Of a stretch of DNA of 44,918 bases, positions 3,166 through 41,807 are shown piece after piece. A program made the translations under genes and the position numbers. The DNA comes from Candidatus Peregrinibacteria bacterium CG2_30_44_17 (lineage in GTDB: Bacteria; Patescibacteriota; Gracilibacteria; UBA1369; UBA12470): positions 25,656 to 70,573 of the forward strand of contig MNZJ01000045.1 of NCBI GenBank assembly GCA_001873565.1. The letters run 5' to 3'. Numbering within the stretch: the first letter of the stretch is position 1; each line of letters opens with the position of its first letter. The notes under the pieces were generated by a model. The model ran no database searches and was not told the DNA's origin. It saw only the letters and a list, made by a program, of their open reading frames with translations.

Positions 3166-3192
3166 CCCTATCCCCTACACCCTATCCCCTAC
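3166..3192 (+). repeat. CCCTAYN heptamer array before hsp20
   Basis: About four units of CCCTATC/CCCTACA in exact seven-base steps fill the ftsH-hsp20 gap and end 12 bases before the hsp20 ATG. The complementary strand carries four G-runs spaced for a G-quadruplex. Confidence 0.85.
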
Positions 3193-3204
3193 GTTCTACC
3201 AACC

Positions 3205-11136: not shown

Positions 11137-11359
11137 CGAGAAATCTGATGCGAAGCGATAAGAAAACGAGCTCCGCCGAGTTTTCTGTAAGCGAAGCAAG
11201 TCGAATCGGAAATTTCGAATTTTTACGCAAGTAAAAACAAGAAAATTCCGAAATGAGACTAAGATTTCCCTATTGCGGGAAATAGCGAGTTTTGCGTTCC
11301 GTAGCGGAGACAGCACGAACTCCGCGAGTGTTCTCGAAGCGCAGGATGATATGTTAGGA
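11137..11359. other. Structured intergenic region downstream of secA
   Basis: No gene seen. At least three hairpins can be drawn: GAAAAC/GTTTTC (11162-11185), TTTTTAC-GCAA-GTAAAAA (11220-11237), and ATTTCCC-6 nt-GGGAAAT (11264-11283). The string GGGAAATAGCGAG occurs both at the secA stop and at 11277, suggesting a local duplication of the gene end. The 16-mer TAGCGAGTTTTGCGTT at 11283-11298 recurs exactly at 34081-34096. Confidence 0.6.
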
Positions 11360-15866: not shown

Positions 15867-15900
15867 TCACTAAATCCTAAGTCCTACATCCTAAGTCCTA
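15851..15900 (+). repeat. GCGC-GAA-GCGC hairpin plus TCCTAAR heptamer array before gltX
   Basis: The hairpin GCGCGAAGCGC at 15851-15861 is followed by heptamers of the form TCCTAAG/TCCTACA at 15871-15900, ending five bases before the gltX ATG. The same hairpin and array order occurs at 31788-31828, and a variant at 21920-21980. Confidence 0.8.
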
Positions 15901-15904
15901 ACAT

Positions 15905-20704: not shown

Positions 20705-20750
20705 CCCTACGCCCTACACCCTATCCCCTACACCCTATCCCCTACACCCT
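20705..20750 (+). repeat. CCCTAYN heptamer array running into the ackA start codon
   Basis: Six full units in exact seven-base register (CCCTACG, CCCTACA, CCCTATC, CCCTACA, CCCTATC, CCCTACA) and a last unit CCCTATG whose final three bases are the ackA ATG. This is the most regular array in the window. The complementary strand has seven G-runs of three or four. Confidence 0.9.
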
Positions 20751-21917
20751 ATGATCCTATTAATCATCAACTCAGGCTCGTCATCTTTGAAGTTACAGGT
20801 CATAGACGGAGGCAAGTGGAAAGTACTTTACAAAGGGCATGTAGACGGCATCGGAATGCCATTTTGCGAATACAAAAGCTCTCATGGAAACGAAGATTGC
20901 AAAGCGATAAAGACGCATCACTCTGCTTTTAAACTAGCCACAACGCACTTACTCAAGAGCGGCGTCATAAAAGATTTAAAAGAGATACAAGCGGTAGGCC
21001 ATAGAGTCGTACACGGAGGAGAAAAATACAAATCTGCAATCAAGGTAACTCCAAAAATCCTCGAGGAAATAAAGAAGCTATCCAATCTGGCGCCTCTTCA
21101 CAACCCACCGAACATTGAGGGAATCAAGGCATCACAAACACTTCTGCCAAAGGCTCAGAATGTAGCGATTTTTGACACGGCTTTTCACAGCACGCTGGAA
21201 GAAAAAGCTTACCTTTACGGACTTCCTATCGAGCTTTACAAAAAATACGGCATACGAAAATACGGATTTCACGGAACAAGTCACAAATACGTAGCTGGAG
21301 AAGCGCGAACTTACCTTGGAGCTAAAAAATCCAAGCATATGATCACGTGCCATCTTGGCAACGGAGCTTCGATAACAGCTATCAAAAACGGAAAATCTAT
21401 CGATACATCCATGGGATTCACTCCACTTGAAGGCGTAATGATGGGAACGAGAACCGGAGATTTTGATCCGGCAATAATCTTCCATCTTACAGACAAAGGA
21501 ATGAAGCCAAACAAGATATACGAAATGCTGAATAATGAATCCGGACTCAAGGGCATAGCAGGCAAATCAGACGTAAGAGATCTAAGAGACGCTTGGTTCG
21601 GCAAACAGGACAAAAAAGCCAAACTCGCGCTCGACATGTATTGCTACAGGATTGCAAAATATATCGGCGCATATTTGGTGGCACTCGGCCAATTGGACGC
21701 ACTTGTCTTCACAGGAGGCATCGGCGAAAACGCTTGGTACATACGCAAATGGGTATGCGATTACCTCTCTATTGAACTAAGTGACAAGAAGAACAAACAC
21801 ACGGAATTTCCAAACCAGAAAACAGTCAAAATCTCACACGGGAAACCCGCAGTCCTCGTCATTCCTACAAACGAGGAACTGCAAATAGCCAAAGAGACTT
21901 ACGAAATCATAAAATAG
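20751..21917 (+). CDS. ackA: Acetate kinase
   Basis: Acetyl phosphate plus ADP to acetate plus ATP. It has 388 residues. ASKHA-fold motifs are IINSGSSSLK at 4-13, VGHRVVHGGEKY near 83-94, FDTAFHSTLE near 140-149, YGFHGTSHKYVA near 171-182, HLGNGASITAIKNGKSIDTS near 201-220 and FTGGIGENAWYIR near 322-334. The catalytic arginine, histidine and glutamate contexts look intact. The start codon is part of the heptamer array. Confidence 0.97.
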   Translation: MILLIINSGSSSLKLQVIDGGKWKVLYKGHVDGIGMPFCEYKSSHGNEDCKAIKTHHSAFKLATTHLLKSGVIKDLKEIQAVGHRVVHGGEKYKSAIKVTPKILEEIKKLSNLAPLHNPPNIEGIKASQTLLPKAQNVAIFDTAFHSTLEEKAYLYGLPIELYKKYGIRKYGFHGTSHKYVAGEARTYLGAKKSKHMITCHLGNGASITAIKNGKSIDTSMGFTPLEGVMMGTRTGDFDPAIIFHLTDKGMKPNKIYEMLNNESGLKGIAGKSDVRDLRDAWFGKQDKKAKLALDMYCYRIAKYIGAYLVALGQLDALVFTGGIGENAWYIRKWVCDYLSIELSDKKNKHTEFPNQKTVKISHGKPAVLVIPTNEELQIAKETYEIIK

Positions 21918-21919
21918 AC

Positions 21920-21990
21920 GTTTCGCACAGCGAAACATACCATTCACTAATCCCTACATCCTAAGTCCTAAATCCTAAGCAATCTCCCCT
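21920..21990 (+). repeat. Hairpin plus TCCTAAR array before pflB
   Basis: A perfect hairpin GTTTCGC-ACA-GCGAAAC at 21920-21936 directly follows the ackA stop. Heptamers TCCCTACA, TCCTAAG, TCCTAAA and TCCTAAG follow to 21979, then CAATCTCCCCT and the pflB ATG at 21991. Confidence 0.75.
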
Positions 21991-30007: not shown

Positions 30008-30172
30008 TAAAGCCGAGTCAAAATAAAATGACATAAAGAACGATGGCGATTTTGTCATAGGGCGAGGTGTCAAAAACGAGGAATAGCAGAGTTATTTAAG
30101 GCTTTTGACAATAAAGCCATATGGCAAAAGGACCTTCTTCCGCTTATGTTATTTTATTTTGACTTGGCTCTA
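30008..30172. repeat. Palindromic structured element, copy 1
   Basis: Outer helix 30011-30034 with 30146-30169: 24 pairs, two of them G-U. Inner helix 30050-30063 with 30116-30129, one mismatch. Third helix GTCAAAA 30069-30075 with TTTTGAC 30103-30109. TA dinucleotides flank both ends (30008-30009, 30171-30172), as in TA-target insertion. It lies in the 351-base gap between two divergent genes. Copy 2 is at 33787-33952. Confidence 0.85.
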
Positions 30173-30298
30173 AACCAAAAATCCATCTTCATAATTCGAA
30201 GGAGCTCTGTTAAACTGGAACTTGATTTTAGGAAAAAGCAGGAAGTAGCAAAATAACACTACAACCCTATCCCATATACCATATAAAAACAAAAACAC

Positions 30299-31777
30299 AT
30301 GCTCAAACTCATACCAAACCGCATAGAAATCAGAAGTGGAAACCAATACATAGTGCTTCTGAACGAGACAACAGCTCACATTTTGGATCTCCACATCGGC
30401 GACCGCGTCAAAGTTAAGAATGGAAAATACGAGGCTACGGCTATTTTGCAAATTTCCGAAGATGGCATAAAAGACGGCCACATCGGACTCTACATGGAAG
30501 CATGGAAAGAGCTCAGAGCTCGCAGAGGACAGCGCATAACGTTGTCTCTCGCGGACAAACCGCTTGCAACAAAATACATACGCAAAAAACTCGACGGCGG
30601 AAGATTAACAACAGAGGAAATAGACGAAATCATCAAAGACATTACCGATGACAACCTAAGTGACATTGAGCTTACATATTTCGTCTCGGGATGTTATATA
30701 CATGGACTCGATAACCACGAGACGGCGGAACTGACAAAATCCATAGTCAAACACGGCTCCAAACTCGACTTTGGAAACAGACTGGTACTCGATAAACACT
30801 GTATCGGTGGAGTCCCCGGCAACAGAACAACAATGGTGGTAATACCAATAGTCACAGCTGCGGGCTTACTAATGCCAAAAACGTCGTCCAGAGCCATCAC
30901 AAGCCCTGCCGGTACAGCGGACACGATGGAGGTTTTGGCAAATGTAAAAAACGAGGCTCCAAAACTAACAAAGATAGCTGAAAAGATAGGAGGATTCATC
31001 ACGTGGGGAGGCGGAGTAGACTTAGCTGCGGCGGACGACCACATGATTAAGGTCAGGCATCCATTGTCGCTTGATCCGGAGGGAATGCTACTGGCATCCA
31101 TCATGGCGAAGAAACATTCCGTAGGAGCAAAGAGGTGCCTGATCGACATTCCAGTTGGAGAACAAGTCAAAGTACAAGACATCAGGAGAGCAAAACATCT
31201 GAGAGCAAGATTTATACAGATTGGAAAAATTCTGGGCATTAAAGTCAAAGTGATATTTTCCAACGGCGAACAGCCTATCGGAAACGGCATCGGCCCTCTT
31301 TTGGAGGCTCAAGATGTAATGAAAGTACTTGCGAACGCTCCTGATGCACCTGCAGATTTGCGTGAAAAATCTCTCTACATGGCGGGCATCTTGCTGGAAC
31401 TTGGTGGCAAAGCGATGTCAGGCTTCGGATACCGAAAAGCTAAGAAAATCCTGAAAAAAGGACAAGCACTCGAGCAAATGAACAAAATTATAGACGCTCA
31501 AGGTCGCAAGAGACTGCCAAAAAACGCGAGCCTTATATACAAAGTCAAATCAGGCAAAGAAGGTAAAGTCAGTTACATCAACAACAAAGCAATATCGAGA
31601 CTGGCACGCGTTGCCGGAGCTCCTCTTGATGCAGCCGCAGGTATTTATCTCAGAAAAAAACTTGGCGACACGGTCAAAAAGAATGAGGTTCTATACGAAA
31701 TCCACTCAAACAACGCAGATCGTGCAGAATTCTCAAAAGACATGTCAAAGAAAGAGTCCGGATACACAGTCAAATAA
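30299..31777 (+). CDS. deoA: AMP phosphorylase (archaeal-type DeoA family)
   Basis: Nucleoside-phosphorylase family member. The archaeal-type enzyme converts AMP and phosphate to adenine and ribose-1,5-bisphosphate. It has 492 residues, about 60 longer than bacterial thymidine phosphorylase because of the extra N-terminal domain (1-85), the mark of the AMP-type group. Motifs: DKHCIGGVPGNRTTMV at 165-180, SSRAITSPAGTADTMEVL at 196-213, and GGFITWGGGVDLAAADD near 231-247. The next gene is the isomerase for its product. A TATAAA at 30282-30287 lies only 11 bases before the ATG, without a clear -35. Confidence 0.9.
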   Translation: MLKLIPNRIEIRSGNQYIVLLNETTAHILDLHIGDRVKVKNGKYEATAILQISEDGIKDGHIGLYMEAWKELRARRGQRITLSLADKPLATKYIRKKLDGGRLTTEEIDEIIKDITDDNLSDIELTYFVSGCYIHGLDNHETAELTKSIVKHGSKLDFGNRLVLDKHCIGGVPGNRTTMVVIPIVTAAGLLMPKTSSRAITSPAGTADTMEVLANVKNEAPKLTKIAEKIGGFITWGGGVDLAAADDHMIKVRHPLSLDPEGMLLASIMAKKHSVGAKRCLIDIPVGEQVKVQDIRRAKHLRARFIQIGKILGIKVKVIFSNGEQPIGNGIGPLLEAQDVMKVLANAPDAPADLREKSLYMAGILLELGGKAMSGFGYRKAKKILKKGQALEQMNKIIDAQGRKRLPKNASLIYKVKSGKEGKVSYINNKAISRLARVAGAPLDAAAGIYLRKKLGDTVKKNEVLYEIHSNNADRAEFSKDMSKKESGYTVK

Positions 31778-31787
31778 TTGGTAATTT

Positions 31788-31869
31788 GCGCGAAGCGCGG
31801 TGTCCCTAATCCCTAAATCCTAAGTCCTCCGTACAACCCTACACCCTATCCCCTACACCCTTCCCCTAC
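31788..31869 (+). repeat. Hairpin plus both heptamer array types before the R15P isomerase gene
   Basis: GCGCGAAGCGC hairpin at 31788-31798, identical to that before gltX. Then a TCCTAAR-type stretch (31804-31828), followed by CCCTAYN units (31837-31869) directly abutting the ATG at 31870. It is the only site in the window with both array types in tandem. Confidence 0.85.
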
Positions 31870-32730
31870 ATGGACTTCCAACAAACAGTACAAGGAATCA
31901 AAGATTTAAGCATCCAAGGAGCAACGGCAATCGCAGTCGCAGCAACGGAAGCTTTGGCTCAAAAAATCGCACAAGGAGCAAGCGAAGAAGAGCTGAGATC
32001 AGCAACGAAGGAACTCGTAGAAGCTCGAGCGACAGAACCTGCACTGAGAAACGCCCTAGCTTACTGCCTTACAAACTACAAAGCTGATCCGGAGGCGGCA
32101 CAAAAAGCGGCTGAGCACTTCAACGACGCCAAAAAGAAAATTACAGAGATAGGAGCAAATCGCATAGAAGATGGAATGACGGTTTTTACTCACTGCCACT
32201 CCTCAACAGTAGAACGCATAGTGATAGAAGCCCACAAACAAGGTAAAAAAATACGCGTCCGCAACACCGAAACAAGACCCAAGTTCCAAGGACGCATCAC
32301 TGCGCAAAAAATATCAGAAGCTGGTATTGAGGTGGATCACTATGTGGATTCCGCAGCGACAGAAGCGATACGAGGAGCCAACATATTCTTGTTCGGATGC
32401 GATGCAATCACGTCAGACGGACGGATCATAAACAAGATCGGAACTGCTTTGATGTTAGACATAGCAGAAAAATACGACGTACCATCATACTCATGTACGG
32501 ATTCATGGAAATTCAATCCAGCGACAATCATGGGACACGACGAAGAGATAGAGCAGCGCGAACCTGCGGAAGTATGGGAAGACGCTCCAAAAGGGGTGAA
32601 AATCCACAATCCGGCATTTGAAGTATGCTCTCCGGACAGCTTAACAGGGATGATATCCGAATTGGGAATTTTTAAGCCAGAAGCACTTATAACAGAGATC
32701 AAAGTGGCATATCCATGGTTAATCAACTGA
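31870..32730 (+). CDS. Ribose-1,5-bisphosphate isomerase (eIF2B-alpha-like family)
   Basis: Converts ribose-1,5-bisphosphate to ribulose-1,5-bisphosphate in the AMP-to-RuBisCO route. It has 286 residues. Helical N-terminal domain to about 95, then the Rossmann-like part. Expected active-site residues are present: cysteine in THCHSST (C109) and aspartate in FGCDAI (D178), followed by NKIGTALMLD. Closely related sugar-phosphate isomerases (MtnA, eIF2B subunits) share the fold, but the AMP phosphorylase next door supports this assignment. It ends in TGA, seven bases before the next gene. Confidence 0.9.
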   Translation: MDFQQTVQGIKDLSIQGATAIAVAATEALAQKIAQGASEEELRSATKELVEARATEPALRNALAYCLTNYKADPEAAQKAAEHFNDAKKKITEIGANRIEDGMTVFTHCHSSTVERIVIEAHKQGKKIRVRNTETRPKFQGRITAQKISEAGIEVDHYVDSAATEAIRGANIFLFGCDAITSDGRIINKIGTALMLDIAEKYDVPSYSCTDSWKFNPATIMGHDEEIEQREPAEVWEDAPKGVKIHNPAFEVCSPDSLTGMISELGIFKPEALITEIKVAYPWLIN

Positions 32731-32737
32731 CAAGACA

Positions 32738-33721
32738 ATGCATTTCCTAAAGATCCAACTTGAAAAAACCAAAGGGATTAAGATACCTTACAAAATCTTT
32801 GAAGGGGAAAAAGCTGGGCCAACTTTCGTGATTTCCGGGGGGATGCACGGCGACGAACTCAACGGAATTGCTTTGGTGAAAAAACTAATAGACTATTGTA
32901 CAAGACATAAAATAGAGAAAACACTACATGGCAAACTAATTATATTACCGATACTCAATCCAACGGGTTTCGAGAAGAAGAGAAGGACGGTGCAGTACGA
33001 CAAGAAAGATCTCAACCGCAGCTTTAACAGGAAAGAAAAAAGTCCTAGTAATATCATAGCAAACGCACTAGTCAAAGAAATATACAGCCAAGCGGACTAC
33101 GCGATAGACTGCCACGATTCCGGCCACCGAAATGTCCTAATCCCGCATGCACGAATTCATGACAGCCAACGAACAACCTGCAAAAGATGTACACGTAACA
33201 TGGCGCAAGCATTTGGATCAAAGATCATCATAGAGCGAGAAGGCAAGGCAGGGATGATAGCAGTCGAGATGGAAAGGAAATTCAACTTGCCTGTACTAAC
33301 AATCGAGACGGGTGGCGCACTCAAACTATTCGACAATTTCGTCAACAAAGGACTCGACGGAATAATCAACATACTAAGATTCTACGGGATGCTGCCTGGA
33401 GAGGTGAAAATTCCGAATAAACAATATTTCCTGAAATATCGGTTTGGTATCAAAGCACCTGCAACCGGCATTATGAAATTTATCAAGAAACTGGGACAAC
33501 GCGTACATCTAGGTGACAAAATCGGCGAACTTTACATCCCAATGCGTAATAGAACGATAGATCTGATAAGCCCGATGTGTGGACTACTTTTCTCCATACA
33601 ATACGGGGAATCTGTCGCAAAAGATGAGATTGTATATTCCGTCTTGGAAGATCGCAAATGCCATGTAAAAAGACGCCACACAACAAGCATGTTCGAAGAA
33701 GTGGAGAACATCGTCATGTAG
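32738..33721 (+). CDS. M14-family zinc amidohydrolase, succinylglutamate desuccinylase/aspartoacylase-like
   Basis: A 327-residue protein. Zinc-site motif HGDE at 37-40 (H37, E40) with the third ligand candidate H126 in IDCHDSG; DLNRSF at 91-96 and the catalytic glutamate E190 in TIETGG. A C-terminal barrel-like domain (PATGIMKFIKKLGQRVHLGD) resembles that of aspartoacylases. Such enzymes cleave N-acyl amino acids; the substrate is not evident. It starts seven bases after the isomerase stop, so the two are probably co-transcribed although a link to nucleotide salvage is unclear. Confidence 0.85.
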   Translation: MHFLKIQLEKTKGIKIPYKIFEGEKAGPTFVISGGMHGDELNGIALVKKLIDYCTRHKIEKTLHGKLIILPILNPTGFEKKRRTVQYDKKDLNRSFNRKEKSPSNIIANALVKEIYSQADYAIDCHDSGHRNVLIPHARIHDSQRTTCKRCTRNMAQAFGSKIIIEREGKAGMIAVEMERKFNLPVLTIETGGALKLFDNFVNKGLDGIINILRFYGMLPGEVKIPNKQYFLKYRFGIKAPATGIMKFIKKLGQRVHLGDKIGELYIPMRNRTIDLISPMCGLLFSIQYGESVAKDEIVYSVLEDRKCHVKRRHTTSMFEEVENIVM

Positions 33722-33786
33722 AGCCAATCGGCAAATAGGATTGTGGGCATAGGCGAAAGAACGTACTTTACGTAAGTGAATGAGCC

Positions 33787-33952
33787 TATAGCCGGGCTAC
33801 CATAAAATGGCATAAAGAGCGGAGGCTATTTTGTCCATATGGCAAGGCAGCAAAAACGTAGACTAGCAGCGCTAATCAAGGCTTTTGATAACAAGGCCAT
33901 ATGGCAAAAGAGTCTTTGAGGTTTACTGCCGTTTTATGGTAGTTCGGCTATA
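33787..33952. repeat. Palindromic structured element, copy 2
   Basis: Outer helix 33787-33812 with 33927-33952: 26 pairs, three of them G-U. Inner helix 33829-33843 with 33896-33909, with one bulged base. It aligns end to end with the element at 30008 with few gaps, sharing the apical AAAAACG, TAGCAG and AAGGCTTTTGA strings. Five outer-helix pairs differ from copy 1 on both strands yet still pair. TA steps flank the arms. Confidence 0.85.
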
Positions 33953-33969
33953 CACCCAAAATCCACTCG

Positions 33970-34454
33970 GAAGCCCTAGCGAAGAACATAATCATAAAGC
34001 CGTTAATTCGTTTTGATTGTCGAGCGAGTATCAGCAGTGCTCATAGTCTTTTGAGAGCGTACATGCTAGCTCGAATGTAGTAGCGAGTTTTGCGTTTGGC
34101 AGCGTAGGCAAAGAAACCGATTTTTGCCGAAGCGAACAATCATTTTCAAGAAATTAGGAGAATAATTCTAAAAGAATCTATTCGACTAATTTAGTAGAAA
34201 ATGAAGCAAAACCCTATTGCAAAAAGACAGGAAGCGATGCCACGAGCAAGGCAATCACCATAAAGAATTTATTTTTTATTCGGAGCGGCTCTGCAGTCCC
34301 GCGTTGGCGGGGCGAAGCCCTAGCGAAGAACATAATCATAAAGCCGTTAATTCGTTTTGATTGTCGAGCGAGTATCAGCAGTGCTCATAGTCTTTTGAGA
34401 GCGTACATGCTAGCTCGAAAAAGACAGGAAGCGATGCCACGAGCAAGGCAATCA
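33970..34454. repeat. Nested direct-repeat cluster
   Basis: The 740-base gap 33722-34461 holds no gene that I can support. Repeat A, 106 bases, is identical at 33970-34075 and 34314-34419; it contains an inverted TCGAGC/GCTCGA pair. Repeat B, 37 bases (AAAAAGACAGGAAGCGATGC and on), is at 34221-34257 and 34418-34454, so the second copies of A and B are fused. A relative of the 37-base repeat from the window start lies at about 34281-34316. At 33748-33789 there is also an imperfect hairpin (ATAGGC/GCCTAT around ACGTA/TACGT). Confidence 0.9.
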
Positions 34455-34461
34455 AAACAAA

Positions 34462-35630: not shown

Positions 35631-38600
35631 CTAGAAGGTATCGATCCAAACTCCATCAATGTAGATCTCACTACTGCTACCTTCATAAACAGTAAATCGT
35701 GCGAAATCTATGGCCGTCCAGTCTACAGAGCCATAAACAGTAGAACTTGGCAGGCTGACAGAATAGTAATGCCAATCATTATCGGTAGGCATAGACGAAA
35801 CATCACCATAAATATAATGAGTATTAGAATCTCCAACTGCAATCCTCAAGCCACTCACCGCAGTATAATCATCTGTCTTCATCCAGAAGCCTATATGTCC
35901 GGTTGATGGCTTACCTGAAGTTTTTCCCAGAAGAGTGGAGAAATCATAAGGACCGCCTGGAAGAGTCCATGTAGACTGAGGTTTCCATGTAGCTTCACCT
36001 ACCGACGAATGACTCCAGTTGAACAGAGCACAATAACTACCCTGCATGCAATCCGTACTGGAAACATTTGCAGTATTAGCATCGTCATAATAATGATAAA
36101 CACCACTAATAGAACTCCAAGAGCTGTACTCCATTTGATCCACATAAGAATAATCCGATGAATCATCGATAGCCGGATCTGTACCATAATAGTTGACCTC
36201 ATGCCCATCAAGGAGTCCATCGCTATCAGAGTCCGTAGAAGTAGGATCCGTACCGTATGTATTGACCTCGTCACCATCGGAAAGACCATCATCGTCAGAG
36301 TCAGTATCTGTCTCGTCGGAACCATAGTAGGCTTCCTCGTCATCATACAGTCCGTCTCCGTCCGTATCATCGATACAGCCGTCGGCATCATCATCGTAAC
36401 CCGTAGCATCCTCAGTCGGACATAGGTCGTCGACGTCATTGACGCCATCTCCATCACTATCAGAAGGATAATCGGAAGCATCAGTAGGATCGGTAGCGTA
36501 AGTAACCTCAACGCCATCTGAATAGCCGTCGGCATCACTATCGGAATTGTTCGGATCGAGAGAAGACGCGTCAGCTCCACTCCAACCGAAATCGGAGATA
36601 ACGTCGTAAGTCACGATTTCTTCATAGTCTGTAAGACCGTCGGAATCGCTGTCGGAGTCGTTAGGATCTGTTAAGTACGTGATGACTTCTTCGTAATCGG
36701 TAAGCGAGTCATCATCACTGTCCGTATCGTTGGGATCTGTAGCGTAAGTAACCTCAACACCATCGATAAGAGAGTCTCCGTCCGAATCTTGAGTGGTAGG
36801 ATCTGTTGAGTATGTTTTTACCTCCTCTCCATCGGAGAGACCATCCGAGTCGCTGTCAGGATTAGTAGGGTCCAAAGTATAAGTACCCGTATACGTACCG
36901 GCATAAGTCACAACCTCTTCATAATCATCAAGAGAATCGGCATCGGTATCAGGATCACAAGGATCTGTACCGGCGGTATACTCTTCCATATTGGTAAGCA
37001 GGTCTGAGTCACTATAATCGTCTGCGTCATACGTGTAAGCATCAACACAGGTATATCTAGCCTCCCATGCATCATCCATGCCATCAAGATCGGCATCGGT
37101 AGGATAATCGGAAGCATCCGTTGGGTCTGTTGCATATGTAACAACTTCGACTCCATCACTATAGGAATCTCCATCGCTATCGGAATTATTCGGATCGAGG
37201 GAAGACGCATCAGCTCCGCTCCAACCGAAATCGGAGATAACTGCGTATGTCACAACTTCCTCATAATCGGTAAGAGAGTCGTCATCGCTATCGGAGTCGT
37301 TAGGATCTGTGAAATAAATAGCAATCTCCTGATAATCCGTCAGGCTATCGCCATCACTATCGGAATTAGATGGATCAGTACCATAAGTTTCAACCTCATC
37401 CCAATCGGAGAGGCCATCCGAGTCGCTATCCAGAGTATCGGGAGTTTCGGAAGAGTCGTTAGGATCACTACCGTATTCGATCTCGACATCGTCATTATAG
37501 CCATCGGCATCGCTGTCAACATCCGTAGGATCGGTATAATACGTATCAACCTCATCTCCATCAGATAAATTATCACCATCAGTATCGGAATCGTTAGGAT
37601 CAGTACTTTCTAAATACTCTTCCAGATTAGTCAAACCATCGATGTCAGGATCCAAAGCACTATCATCGATGCCGACGGAGAGTCCGTTATCCCCTTCCCA
37701 AACATCGTCCATGCCGTCCGCATCCGTATCGACAAACGAAGGGTAGTCGGAAGAGTCCGTAGGATCGGTTCCGTAAGTATATTCAATCAAATTACTGTAA
37801 CCATCGGCATCTGGATCGGAAGATGCGTCATCGGTATTCGGATCCAAATCAGGTGAGTAAGAGACCTCCCAGGCATCATCCATACCATCGGAGTCTGTAT
37901 CCGCATCAGATGGATCGGTACCATATACGGAAACCTCATCACCATCAGGTAGCGTATCATCATCGCTATCCGTATCTGTCGGACTGCTGCCATAGACCTC
38001 CGCTTCATCTCCGTCAGAGAGAGTATCTCCGTCAGTATCCTGATCGGTAGGATCACTTGCGTAGGTATTGACCTCTTCGCCATCATCAAGTCCGTCGGAA
38101 TCCGTATCGCCATTAAGTGGATCAAGCGCCGATGCATCGGCTCCGCTCCAACCCATCGCTGCCGTATCGGCATACGTCACAAGCTCCTCGTAATCCGTAA
38201 GAGAATCATCATCAGTATACGAGTCGCAAGGATCCGTACCTGCTTCATACTCTTCTATATTGGTAAGTCCGTCAGAATCGCCATCATCATCTGCATCATA
38301 AACAGACGAGTCTACACATGCGTAAGAGTCCTCCCAAGTATCATCCATATGATCCAAATCCGCATCGTCCGGCACACTGGTCGAATCGAGAGGATTGCTG
38401 CCTCCGTCGATTTCTTCGGCATCATTGTAAGAGTCACCATCCGAATCCGCGTCAATAGGACTAGTGTTATAGAGTAGAACTTCGTCACCGTCAGAGATTG
38501 AATCACCATCGGAATCAACATTCGCTACATCCGCTCCCCATCCGCTTTCCGCTTCATCCCAAAGTCCATCCGCATCGGTATCGGAAGTCAAAGTCACCTC

Positions 38601-41600
38601 CATAGCACCCATATCGGCACCGCCTCCCATACGAGCAACGCCGTACATATCGGTTGCAGGGCTGACGCTGCTATCCGCCGAATCAACGCCAAAAGAAGTC
38701 ATCTCAAGCATATAATCGCCACCGGAAGGATCGGCATAAGGATAGTAGTCGTACCAAGCAAGCTTATTGTGGCTGTCTATAGCACGCAAAGCCTCTTGTT
38801 CCTCAAGAGAGTAATCGTTGTAACTTGAATAGTAAGAATAAATCGATCCATCTCCAGGAGTAGAAGATCCGGTATATTCGACCAGAACGTAGTCGGTCAT
38901 GCCACCCTCCATCGGATAGAGGTTGTAATCCAAATCAATCAGCGAAAAGACATCAGCACTCACAAGCACAGGGAGTGATTTACCGTCAATCGCTGAGAAA
39001 ATATTGTTGTAGGCGCTTAACCCGCCTGAGCTCAATCCATCAACGACAATGTCATTATAATTCGTGCCAAAGCTGTTGTTTACAACGGAGGCATCGGAAT
39101 TCAAATAAACAATCTCGACACCGACATCACCGTTTGTAAGCAGATTATTATATACATCGTTAACTTCCGTAGAATTGAAGCTCATAGCGGTATCAGCCCA
39201 ATCAGATTTATTTCCTGAAACTTCAAGAGCGCTACCACCTTCAAACAATATAGGAGCAGCAACACGATAAAACGTATTCCCACTCAGGCTATCAACATCC
39301 GTATCTACGGCATCAATAGCCGTAACCACTCCAGAGGAGAAATCATTGCGATCAATATTCGCCACATCAACCTCATCCAAATCCAAAGCCACATCGCATG
39401 TCGGCATATAGTTCCCGGATATACTGGTGACCGTAGCAATTCCGGAACTAGGAGTTGCATCCAGTTTTATACAACTGCTGGAATTATAGAAATTATTACT
39501 ATCAATTTCGGCAAACATAATGTCCCAATTATTAGTAGCGGCATGGAAACCATTAGGCGCCCCTTTGAATTCATTATTAATAAAATATCCAGTCGTAGAC
39601 CCTCCATAAAAAGCATCAATAACGATATCGGTGTCCGTAGACAAGAATTCATTACCGTCAACGGTGTCAAAATACCCACCATCAATATAAATGGTCTGCA
39701 GATAAATAGGATCATTTGATGATAATTGGTAAAAACGATTCCCTTTATAAATATCAACATAAGAGTCCTCACCAGTTACAGCAGCGTAATCAGAAGTCCA
39801 ATCATACATATAAGCCCCTGTTTCATTCGATTCGACAGAATCAATAACAGAGGAAATAAACATCATAAGCTTCTCGATACCATACTGATCAGCCGCTTCT
39901 CCACTTACGGAAGGCAAATTGAAAAATCGGTTCTGGAAAATATCACCAATAGCAGCACCATCGGAGTAGATGCCTACCGATGCGTTGCCATAAAGACCGC
40001 TAATAAAATCTATATTGCTTATAGATCCAACAGTAGAAGGACCTGTATAATCTAAAGGAGGAGGTGTCCCATCGTTAGGATCATCACAATAATCTTCGCC
40101 GTCGCCACAAGGAGTGCCGAATCCAATGATAACAATTCCATCATCAAACTGAGTGATATTCACATCGTGTATCGCATCAACCTGTGAGCTATTCGCTATA
40201 TAAATACCCGTTTCAACAGCCGAAACGGACGAATTCGAAATTTCACCGACATACGCGCCAATGATGCTAATCCCATAAGTACCAGGCTGCCAATCGACAC
40301 CCGAGATCATACTTCCATAAATATTGACATCGTCAACGGAGACAACATCATTACGCAAATATATTGCCGTATCACCAACATTGCCATACACGTCACCGGA
40401 TATGGAATTAAGCGAACCGACCCAAGAAAGAAAAATACCAAAATCAAATCCGCTATAAGTGTTGCCAGATATAGAATCAACATTGCCAGAGATAGTAATA
40501 CCTCTGATATCAGTTGCACTACCACCACTTAGTACAGAGAAAGCATTATTAGTAATAGACCCGACATCTCCATCTATCACATTTACTTGAGTACCGTCCG
40601 CATTAGAAGTAGCTTCAAACGTATTGCCATCGATTGAACCTACAGAGCCCGATGCCGTTTGCACAACAACGCCTCTTTTGTGATTCACAAAAGAATTGCT
40701 TTGAATAGTACCTACAGATCCGCTCATAACACGAACACCTGCTGAGAAATGACCGGGAACAGTGTCGTAAACCGTATCGGCATACTCGAAATTATTATTT
40801 GTAATTTCAGAAATAGTTGGGCTCCAACTACCAGGCAAACCCATTACAATCGCATATTCATTGTAGAAATCATTTCCATCAATCAAATCAATATTCCCAT
40901 TCGCAAGGTACAAACTGCCAGGAGCACCGAAAGTTGATGTATAAACATTGAACGTATTATCAACAATTTCATCAACATCGGCATGACTATCACCTACATA
41001 TGTCCTCGATTCATTAAATATATTATTACGGACAGATGAGACATGCGTTCCAATATTAAGATTAGTGTAATTAAATGTATTTAAATACACTTCCACGTCA
41101 GAAACAGGATAAGAACCATAAGGATTGCCTAGACTCAAAACCCCCCTGTTGTAAGAAGTTCCATCAAAAGTGTTGTTATAAATTTTTATTGCATCAGCAA
41201 CACCACCATGCAACACCAACCTACCACCAATACCAAAATTGTTACTACTAACAACCAGCTCTTCATGATTCATCGAAGCAAAACCAAAAACCTGCAAACC
41301 TGCCGATGCAGTGGCGCTAAAATCAAAACCAGAATAATTCAAATATTCGACTCCGTTACCCTTAGATGACGGATATGCAACACTCATACTACCAGTTTTT
41401 GGGCCACAACCACGCGAATAGTCCACCCATGGCTCAACCCAAACGTTTATGTTGCTTGGGTAAGGTTCTGTTGTTGACCCAGAATAACCTCCACTTGGAC
41501 TGCAATATTCAATAATTACATCATTGTAACCGCTTGCACTAGCTGCATAAATCGCAGCTTCAACCGAACCATAAGGATCAGCTGTAGTACCCCATGTAGT

Positions 41601-41807
41601 TTTCGGTGGCCTGCCCGAAGACTCACGGGTCGTACCATGATAAGTCAGAGAAACACTATCATCAACATACAACACCAATGCTGATGCAGCATGAGTAGTC
41701 CCTGACAAAACAGGTACAAGGCCAATAAACAGAATAGCTACGATCAAAGTAGCTACAAATCCTTTTAGGAGTGTCTTCACATTCATATTGAGGGGGTTAA
41801 AATCCAT
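35631..41807 (-). CDS. Giant exported surface protein: beta-helix, TSP3 repeats, C-terminal binding-like domain
   Basis: 2058 residues. Signal peptide or anchor at about 8-42 ([20 protein letters not shown], then THAASA). About 45-1070: right-handed beta-helix of NosD/pectate-lyase type with asparagine ladders ([23 protein letters not shown]). About 1075-1880: a long series of aspartate-rich thrombospondin-type-3/calcium-loop repeats, DxDxDGxxDGxE spaced about every 20-30 residues with YGTDP or YATDP tails. About 1885-2058: a jelly-roll-like module ending in [11 protein letters not shown], perhaps carbohydrate-binding. Very acidic and poor in lysine. No sortase motif or membrane anchor at the C-terminus. 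Likely secreted through Sec and held in a calcium-stiffened surface stalk. ATG at 41786 (MNVKTLLKG) is an alternative start. Confidence 0.9.

Follow-up and report, generated by a model that had tools for sequence, protein, structure and literature searches.

The window, i.e., the whole stretch of 44,918 nt analyzed here (contig C34:25656-70573 of a 1.17-Mb genome assembled in 51 contigs), contains two near-palindromic elements of 165 and 166 bp, hereafter A34 and B34 (Table 1). A34 is flanked by a 1467-aa minus-strand ORF and by an AMP/thymidine phosphorylase gene, and B34 is located downstream of a deacylase-like gene. No ORF of at least 60 aa occurs inside A34 or B34, and no transposase gene is carried by the 164-166-bp element.

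Several other features were observed in the same region. The phosphorylase gene (AMP_phos just under cut-off) adjoins a ribose-1,5-bisphosphate isomerase-like gene (ribulose_e2b2 below cut-off), the two being the pair of the CPR/archaeal AMP pathway. Exact 106-nt direct repeats come right after B34, as do, after it, 44-nt direct repeats that are 93% identical, and a long minus-strand ORF of 2058 aa with many degenerate internal repeats bears a weak similarity to CglD. Finally, the 7-nt unit (C/T)CCTANN is repeated in tandem in arrays found in the window and at loci L099-L123. Most arrays examined end 0-12 nt before a start codon, start codons being counted for open frames of at least 80 aa, and the heptamer pattern has 119 (overlapping) matches genome-wide vs. 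1 for the reversed control pattern. Heptamer repeats placed where the ribosome binds seem unusual.

Table 1. Window coordinates of the two palindromic copies, their terminal inverted repeats and other features.
Feature	Position	Strand	Details
Putative MITE copy A34, subfamily A	30008..30172	+	165 bp; outer ends TA...TA; covariance model match
Left terminal inverted repeat of A34	30008..30036	+	TAAAGCCGAGTCAAAATAAAATGACATAA
Right terminal inverted repeat of A34	30144..30172	-	TAGAGCCAAGTCAAAATAAAATAACATAA on minus strand
Putative MITE copy B34, subfamily B	33787..33952	+	166 bp; outer ends TA...TA; covariance model match
Left terminal inverted repeat of B34	33787..33812	+	TATAGCCGGGCTACCATAAAATGGCA
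Right terminal inverted repeat of B34	33927..33952	-	TATAGCCGAACTACCATAAAACGGCA on minus strand
Phosphorylase and isomerase-like genes	30299-32730
Exact 106-nt direct repeats	33970-34075; 34314-34419
44-nt direct repeats	34221-34264; 34418-34461
2058-aa ORF	35631-41807	-
Second dispersed intergenic repeat	11280-11348		C34:36935-37003
Heptamer arrays	3166-3193; 15875-15902; 20705-20753; 21952-21979; 31804-31857; 44278-44312

Fold, Copies and Insertion Sites of the Element

The near-palindromes reported in the preliminary description were recovered at the coordinates of Table 1, and a covariance model matches exactly these two places in the window. A34 and B34 align end to end, as had been claimed. 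Their terminal inverted repeats are 26-29 bp long and 88-90% complementary, and each copy forms a single long hairpin, far more stable than expected by chance (z = -10.4 for A34 and -9.6 for B34 on the plus strand). The minus strands fold nearly equally (z = -8.2 and -9.2), which points to palindromic DNA and gives no evidence for one transcribed strand. At least five paired changes had been announced between the two copies; six both-sided changes from one Watson-Crick pair to another were counted, at pair positions 11, 12, 14, 15, 24, and 63. The accompanying statement that the remaining single changes are mostly G-U holds in part, given that 11 of the 24 one-sided changes are Watson-Crick/G-U and the other 13 are not, 3 of them being Watson-Crick/A-C and the rest other mismatches.

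DNA searches with each copy and with a degenerate end pattern, which has 34 matches genome-wide against none for its reversed control, revealed about 19 related places in this one genome. Nine are full-length copies of 164-166 bp, and C5 is a 170-bp variant whose left interior is replaced. Internal deletions have shortened five others to 71-104 bp while sparing both ends (C22, C13, C20, C23, and C17), and the last four are truncated or broken (C1, C35, C45s, and C2p). The flanking sequences differ from copy to copy and show no relation, the presence of multiple dispersed copies being a feature of MITEs. Among the 15 copies with both ends readable, TA is found at both outer ends in 12 and at one end in 3; in three full-length copies, one end reads TA and the opposite one CA. 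Two end subfamilies can be distinguished, TAKAGCC-RARTCAAAATAAAATGACA (A-type, copy A34) and TATAGCCGAACTACCATAAAAYGGCA (B-type, copy B34), both of which are present in this window.

The most direct evidence on the origin of these copies comes from C48, which sits inside another dispersed intergenic repeat. When the flanks of C48 are joined with one TA and searched against the genome, the 96-nt query aligns in full with C50:5386-5481, with one mismatch. The empty C50 site has a single TA, whereas at the filled C48 site the element is flanked by TA on either side, which is how a mobile element duplicating TA would leave them. Insertion of the element with TA duplication is therefore directly documented at one empty site, located in a paralogous repeat of the same genome, not in a sister strain. 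According to the preliminary description, many copies with TA duplications would favor a MITE, and this is the situation encountered: about 19 places, TA ends, and a duplicated TA where an empty site is available. The second repeat itself (AGTAGCGAGGATTGCGATCCGTAGCGGAG...) has 11 matches in the genome, one of which holds the insertion; its places include the C50 stretch, C48:7139-7195, and one locus in the window.

Genome-wide, most copies are intergenic or located at gene ends, several of them between convergent genes, and their orientation is not fixed. This bias would agree with a MITE-born hairpin kept as an mRNA 3'-end element, with proposed roles in RNase III/RNase E processing, as a stabilizer, or as an insulator between convergent genes, a reading that adds to the mobile-element explanation and does not exclude it. 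At C32 and C20, neighboring reading frames extend into the element or as far as its edge, and ERIC and NEMIS copies affect neighboring mRNAs in other bacteria (PMC2229807). Nevertheless, we consider such a role unlikely: the distance to genes and the orientation vary, many copies are decayed or deleted, any tolerated insertion would show the same intergenic bias, and no terminator-like T-tract follows the full hairpin. In a separate scan, terminator-like sites were fewer than in shuffles and none coincided with the full hairpin, which led us to reject the terminator idea.

Origin of the Paired Changes

Both-sided changes affect 14 pairs among the nine full copies, compared with 6.0 in shuffles; none of 500 shuffles attained 14, and the signal is abolished by sliding the pairing partners, which indicates that the palindrome is maintained. 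The first choice of the preliminary description was selection on an RNA fold. For a non-coding RNA, regulatory or other, whose fold would be under selection in two or more gene copies, the strong hairpin together with this covariation speaks in favor. In the outer helix alone, G-U events also outnumber A-C events (11 vs. 3, uncorrected and from copies that are not independent); this excess is the best remaining hint, albeit a weak one, of an RNA role or of a strand-specific constraint. In the whole palindrome, however, the excess of G-U over A-C events (23 vs. 14) is not significant (p = 0.19), an A-C mismatch being a G-U mismatch as seen from the other strand. Moreover, 9 of the 20 both-sided changes from Watson-Crick to Watson-Crick are transversions. 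Since transversions cannot pass through G-U, and given the lack of a significant G-U excess, RNA compensation is disfavored as the main cause. With both strands folding nearly alike and a TA-duplicating insertion at the empty site, selection on an RNA fold is not supported as the first choice, and a non-coding RNA gene appears very improbable.

Private paired transversions, such as those of C45 at pair 14 and C37 at pair 18, would be expected if one arm had served as the template of the other. In addition, outer-arm identity within a copy reaches 0.89 vs. 0.77 for randomly paired arms (p = 2e-4); the same test gave 0.03 within subfamily B and nothing within the three copies of subfamily A. As an account of the covariation, arm-to-arm copying combined with a requirement for matching ends is preferable to RNA compensation. 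The arms of the long palindrome would be re-copied from each other by template switching on an extruded hairpin, and both ends would also have to remain compatible with the same transposase. Any hairpin formed in read-through transcripts would then be a by-product, possibly with local effects on neighboring mRNAs.

Covariation also extends inward, to pairs 63-103, 64-102, and 77-89. These interior pairs lie beyond what a transposase need recognize and count against the mobile-element explanation. The whole length could be kept palindromic because the transcribed hairpin functions, for example by processing or protecting mRNA 3' ends, transposon homogenization and RNA selection acting together; we regard this combination as quite unlikely. 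More generally, when a palindromic mobile element is present in several copies, the paired differences among them strongly imitate RNA covariation, here to an extent that none of the 500 shuffles attained. For palindromes present in multiple copies within a genome, insertion sites and the balance of G-U and A-C changes should consequently be checked before an RNA is claimed.

Distribution and the Probable IS630 Connection

The end pattern is present in one of the 89 genomes of the order, namely this genome, and in none of the 88 others. Likewise, a covariance model built from the nine full copies matched this genome only and none of the 379 others of a 380-genome phylum sample, under strict filters by which weak matches could be lost; this search of relatives went against the RNA reading that the preliminary description had put forward. 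Such a distribution is the pattern of a recent arrival, not that of a conserved RNA gene, and absence from all sampled relatives further weighs against a non-coding RNA. No Rfam family reached threshold for the element. The weaker idea of a 6S-like RNA was abandoned, as RNase P was the sole family at threshold in an Rfam scan of the window and as occurrence in a single genome, in multiple copies of insertion type, is wrong for 6S. Exact end patterns were absent from viral contigs, and a search of 84,980 species genomes with the end pattern returned four stretches, one of which is a terminus of a degenerate Pseudoalteromonas IS630. The other three, L053 6217-6242 and L055 3201-3226 from the Peregrinibacteria MAG PFOK01 and L056 1441-1466 from Aliikangiella, are single exact matches to this pattern in other lineages and may be decayed elements of the same group.

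A DDE_3 search of the genome identified two pieces, on C47 and C43, which overlap with 309/310 identity; both are located at contig ends, so that the complete element is not seen. The combined IS630 of about 0.9 kb contains an HTH_Tnp_IS630 ORF (110 aa; PF01710, E = 9.5e-23) and a DDE_3 ORF (157 aa; PF13358, E = 6.7e-31), flanked on each outer side by a TIR-like sequence (TATAGCTATTTCTGAATAATCTGGCATA and TATAGCCGATTCTGAATAATATGGCATA). Its right end matches the terminal repeat of either subfamily at 21 of 28 positions, a score not attained in 200,000 shuffles, and its left end at 17/28 (subfamily B) or 19/28 (subfamily A). The interior has no similarity to that of the short element, and no IS630 with identical ends was found in the genome. 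Given the weak match of the left end and the dissimilar interior, this particular IS630 may not be the mover. The degenerate Pseudoalteromonas IS630, with 37% amino-acid identity over the DDE part, carries an end (TATAGCCGAATCAATATAAAATGACATA) matching 24/28 positions of subfamily A and 23/28 of subfamily B (0 of 200,000 shuffles). Together, the end matches to both IS630 elements indicate that the end sequence belongs to an IS630 group, although no exact partner for the short element was found. The IS630 protein was found in 2 of the 380 genomes of the phylum sample, and the IS630 relative in G167 showed no obvious matching ends by eye. At L052 1156-1720, an IS630 is encoded in two frames around an A-run (ATAAAAAAACC near 1447), possibly through a programmed frameshift, which occurs in some IS630 elements.

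On the basis of these sequence comparisons, the most likely mover is an IS630-type transposase like the one encoded in the same genome. An element of the REP/BIME type, mobilized not by IS630 but by a Y1 (RAYT/IS200-like) enzyme, would also be palindromic, intergenic, and multi-copy. However, the length, the terminal repeats starting with TA, the TA duplication, and the IS630-like ends are at odds with IS200/IS605 and RAYT elements, which are not known to leave a target duplication, making this possibility extremely improbable. Very probably, A34 and B34 each represent a copy of a MITE, a mobile element 164-166 bp in length that is non-autonomous and of the IS630 type. Both terminal repeats would be bound by a transposase, either that of this IS630 or that of a lost relative whose ends are closer, which would mobilize the element in trans and insert it at TA. 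A MITE with TA target duplication and homogenized arms, which the preliminary description had listed as an alternative, thus gains support from copy number and unrelated flanks, and further from the empty site, the deletion derivatives, and the presence in the same genome of an IS630 with related ends.

Comparison with Known Mobile Repeats

What is added here is a MITE related to IS630 and inserting at TA, carried by a small CPR-like genome; among the open-access papers searched, none names both MITEs and IS630 in connection with the Candidate Phyla Radiation. The same traits are listed in a review of small bacterial mobile repeats, which measure 100-200 bp, give long stem-loop transcripts, and have TA at their termini (PMC2229807). 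Among them, RUP (repeat unit of pneumococcus), mobilized by IS630-Spn1, is likewise a small, mostly intergenic non-coding repeat inserted at TA, with ends related to an IS630 of the same genome (PMC2229807). RUP nevertheless differs by its 107 bp and 108 copies, compared with 164-166 bp and about 19 copies here, and the present element has longer end repeats (about 26 bp), forms one hairpin over its whole length, and displays two end subfamilies.

The Correia/NEMIS elements of Neisseria resemble it by their size of about 155 bp, by a shorter form of 107 bp devoid of an internal part, by their long RNA hairpin, by 24-bp end repeats, and by TA at the termini (PMC2229807). In contrast, their sequence and host differ, and the IHF site and promoter are not features shown for the element described here. 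Their copy number in Neisseria is also far higher. With the IS630 family (Tc1/mariner superfamily), the element shares the TA target and ends starting with TATAGC, and an HTH_Tnp_IS630 plus DDE_3 transposase is present in the same genome; it differs by being gene-less and by an interior dissimilar to the IS630 seen here. By its sequence features, the element appears to work like RUP/Correia-type repeats and displays most of the MITE features tested; with its weakly matching left ends, it is a candidate for the MITE of this particular IS630. It is an ordinary kind of bacterial repeat, a RUP/Correia-like TA-inserting MITE, and not a new regulatory RNA.
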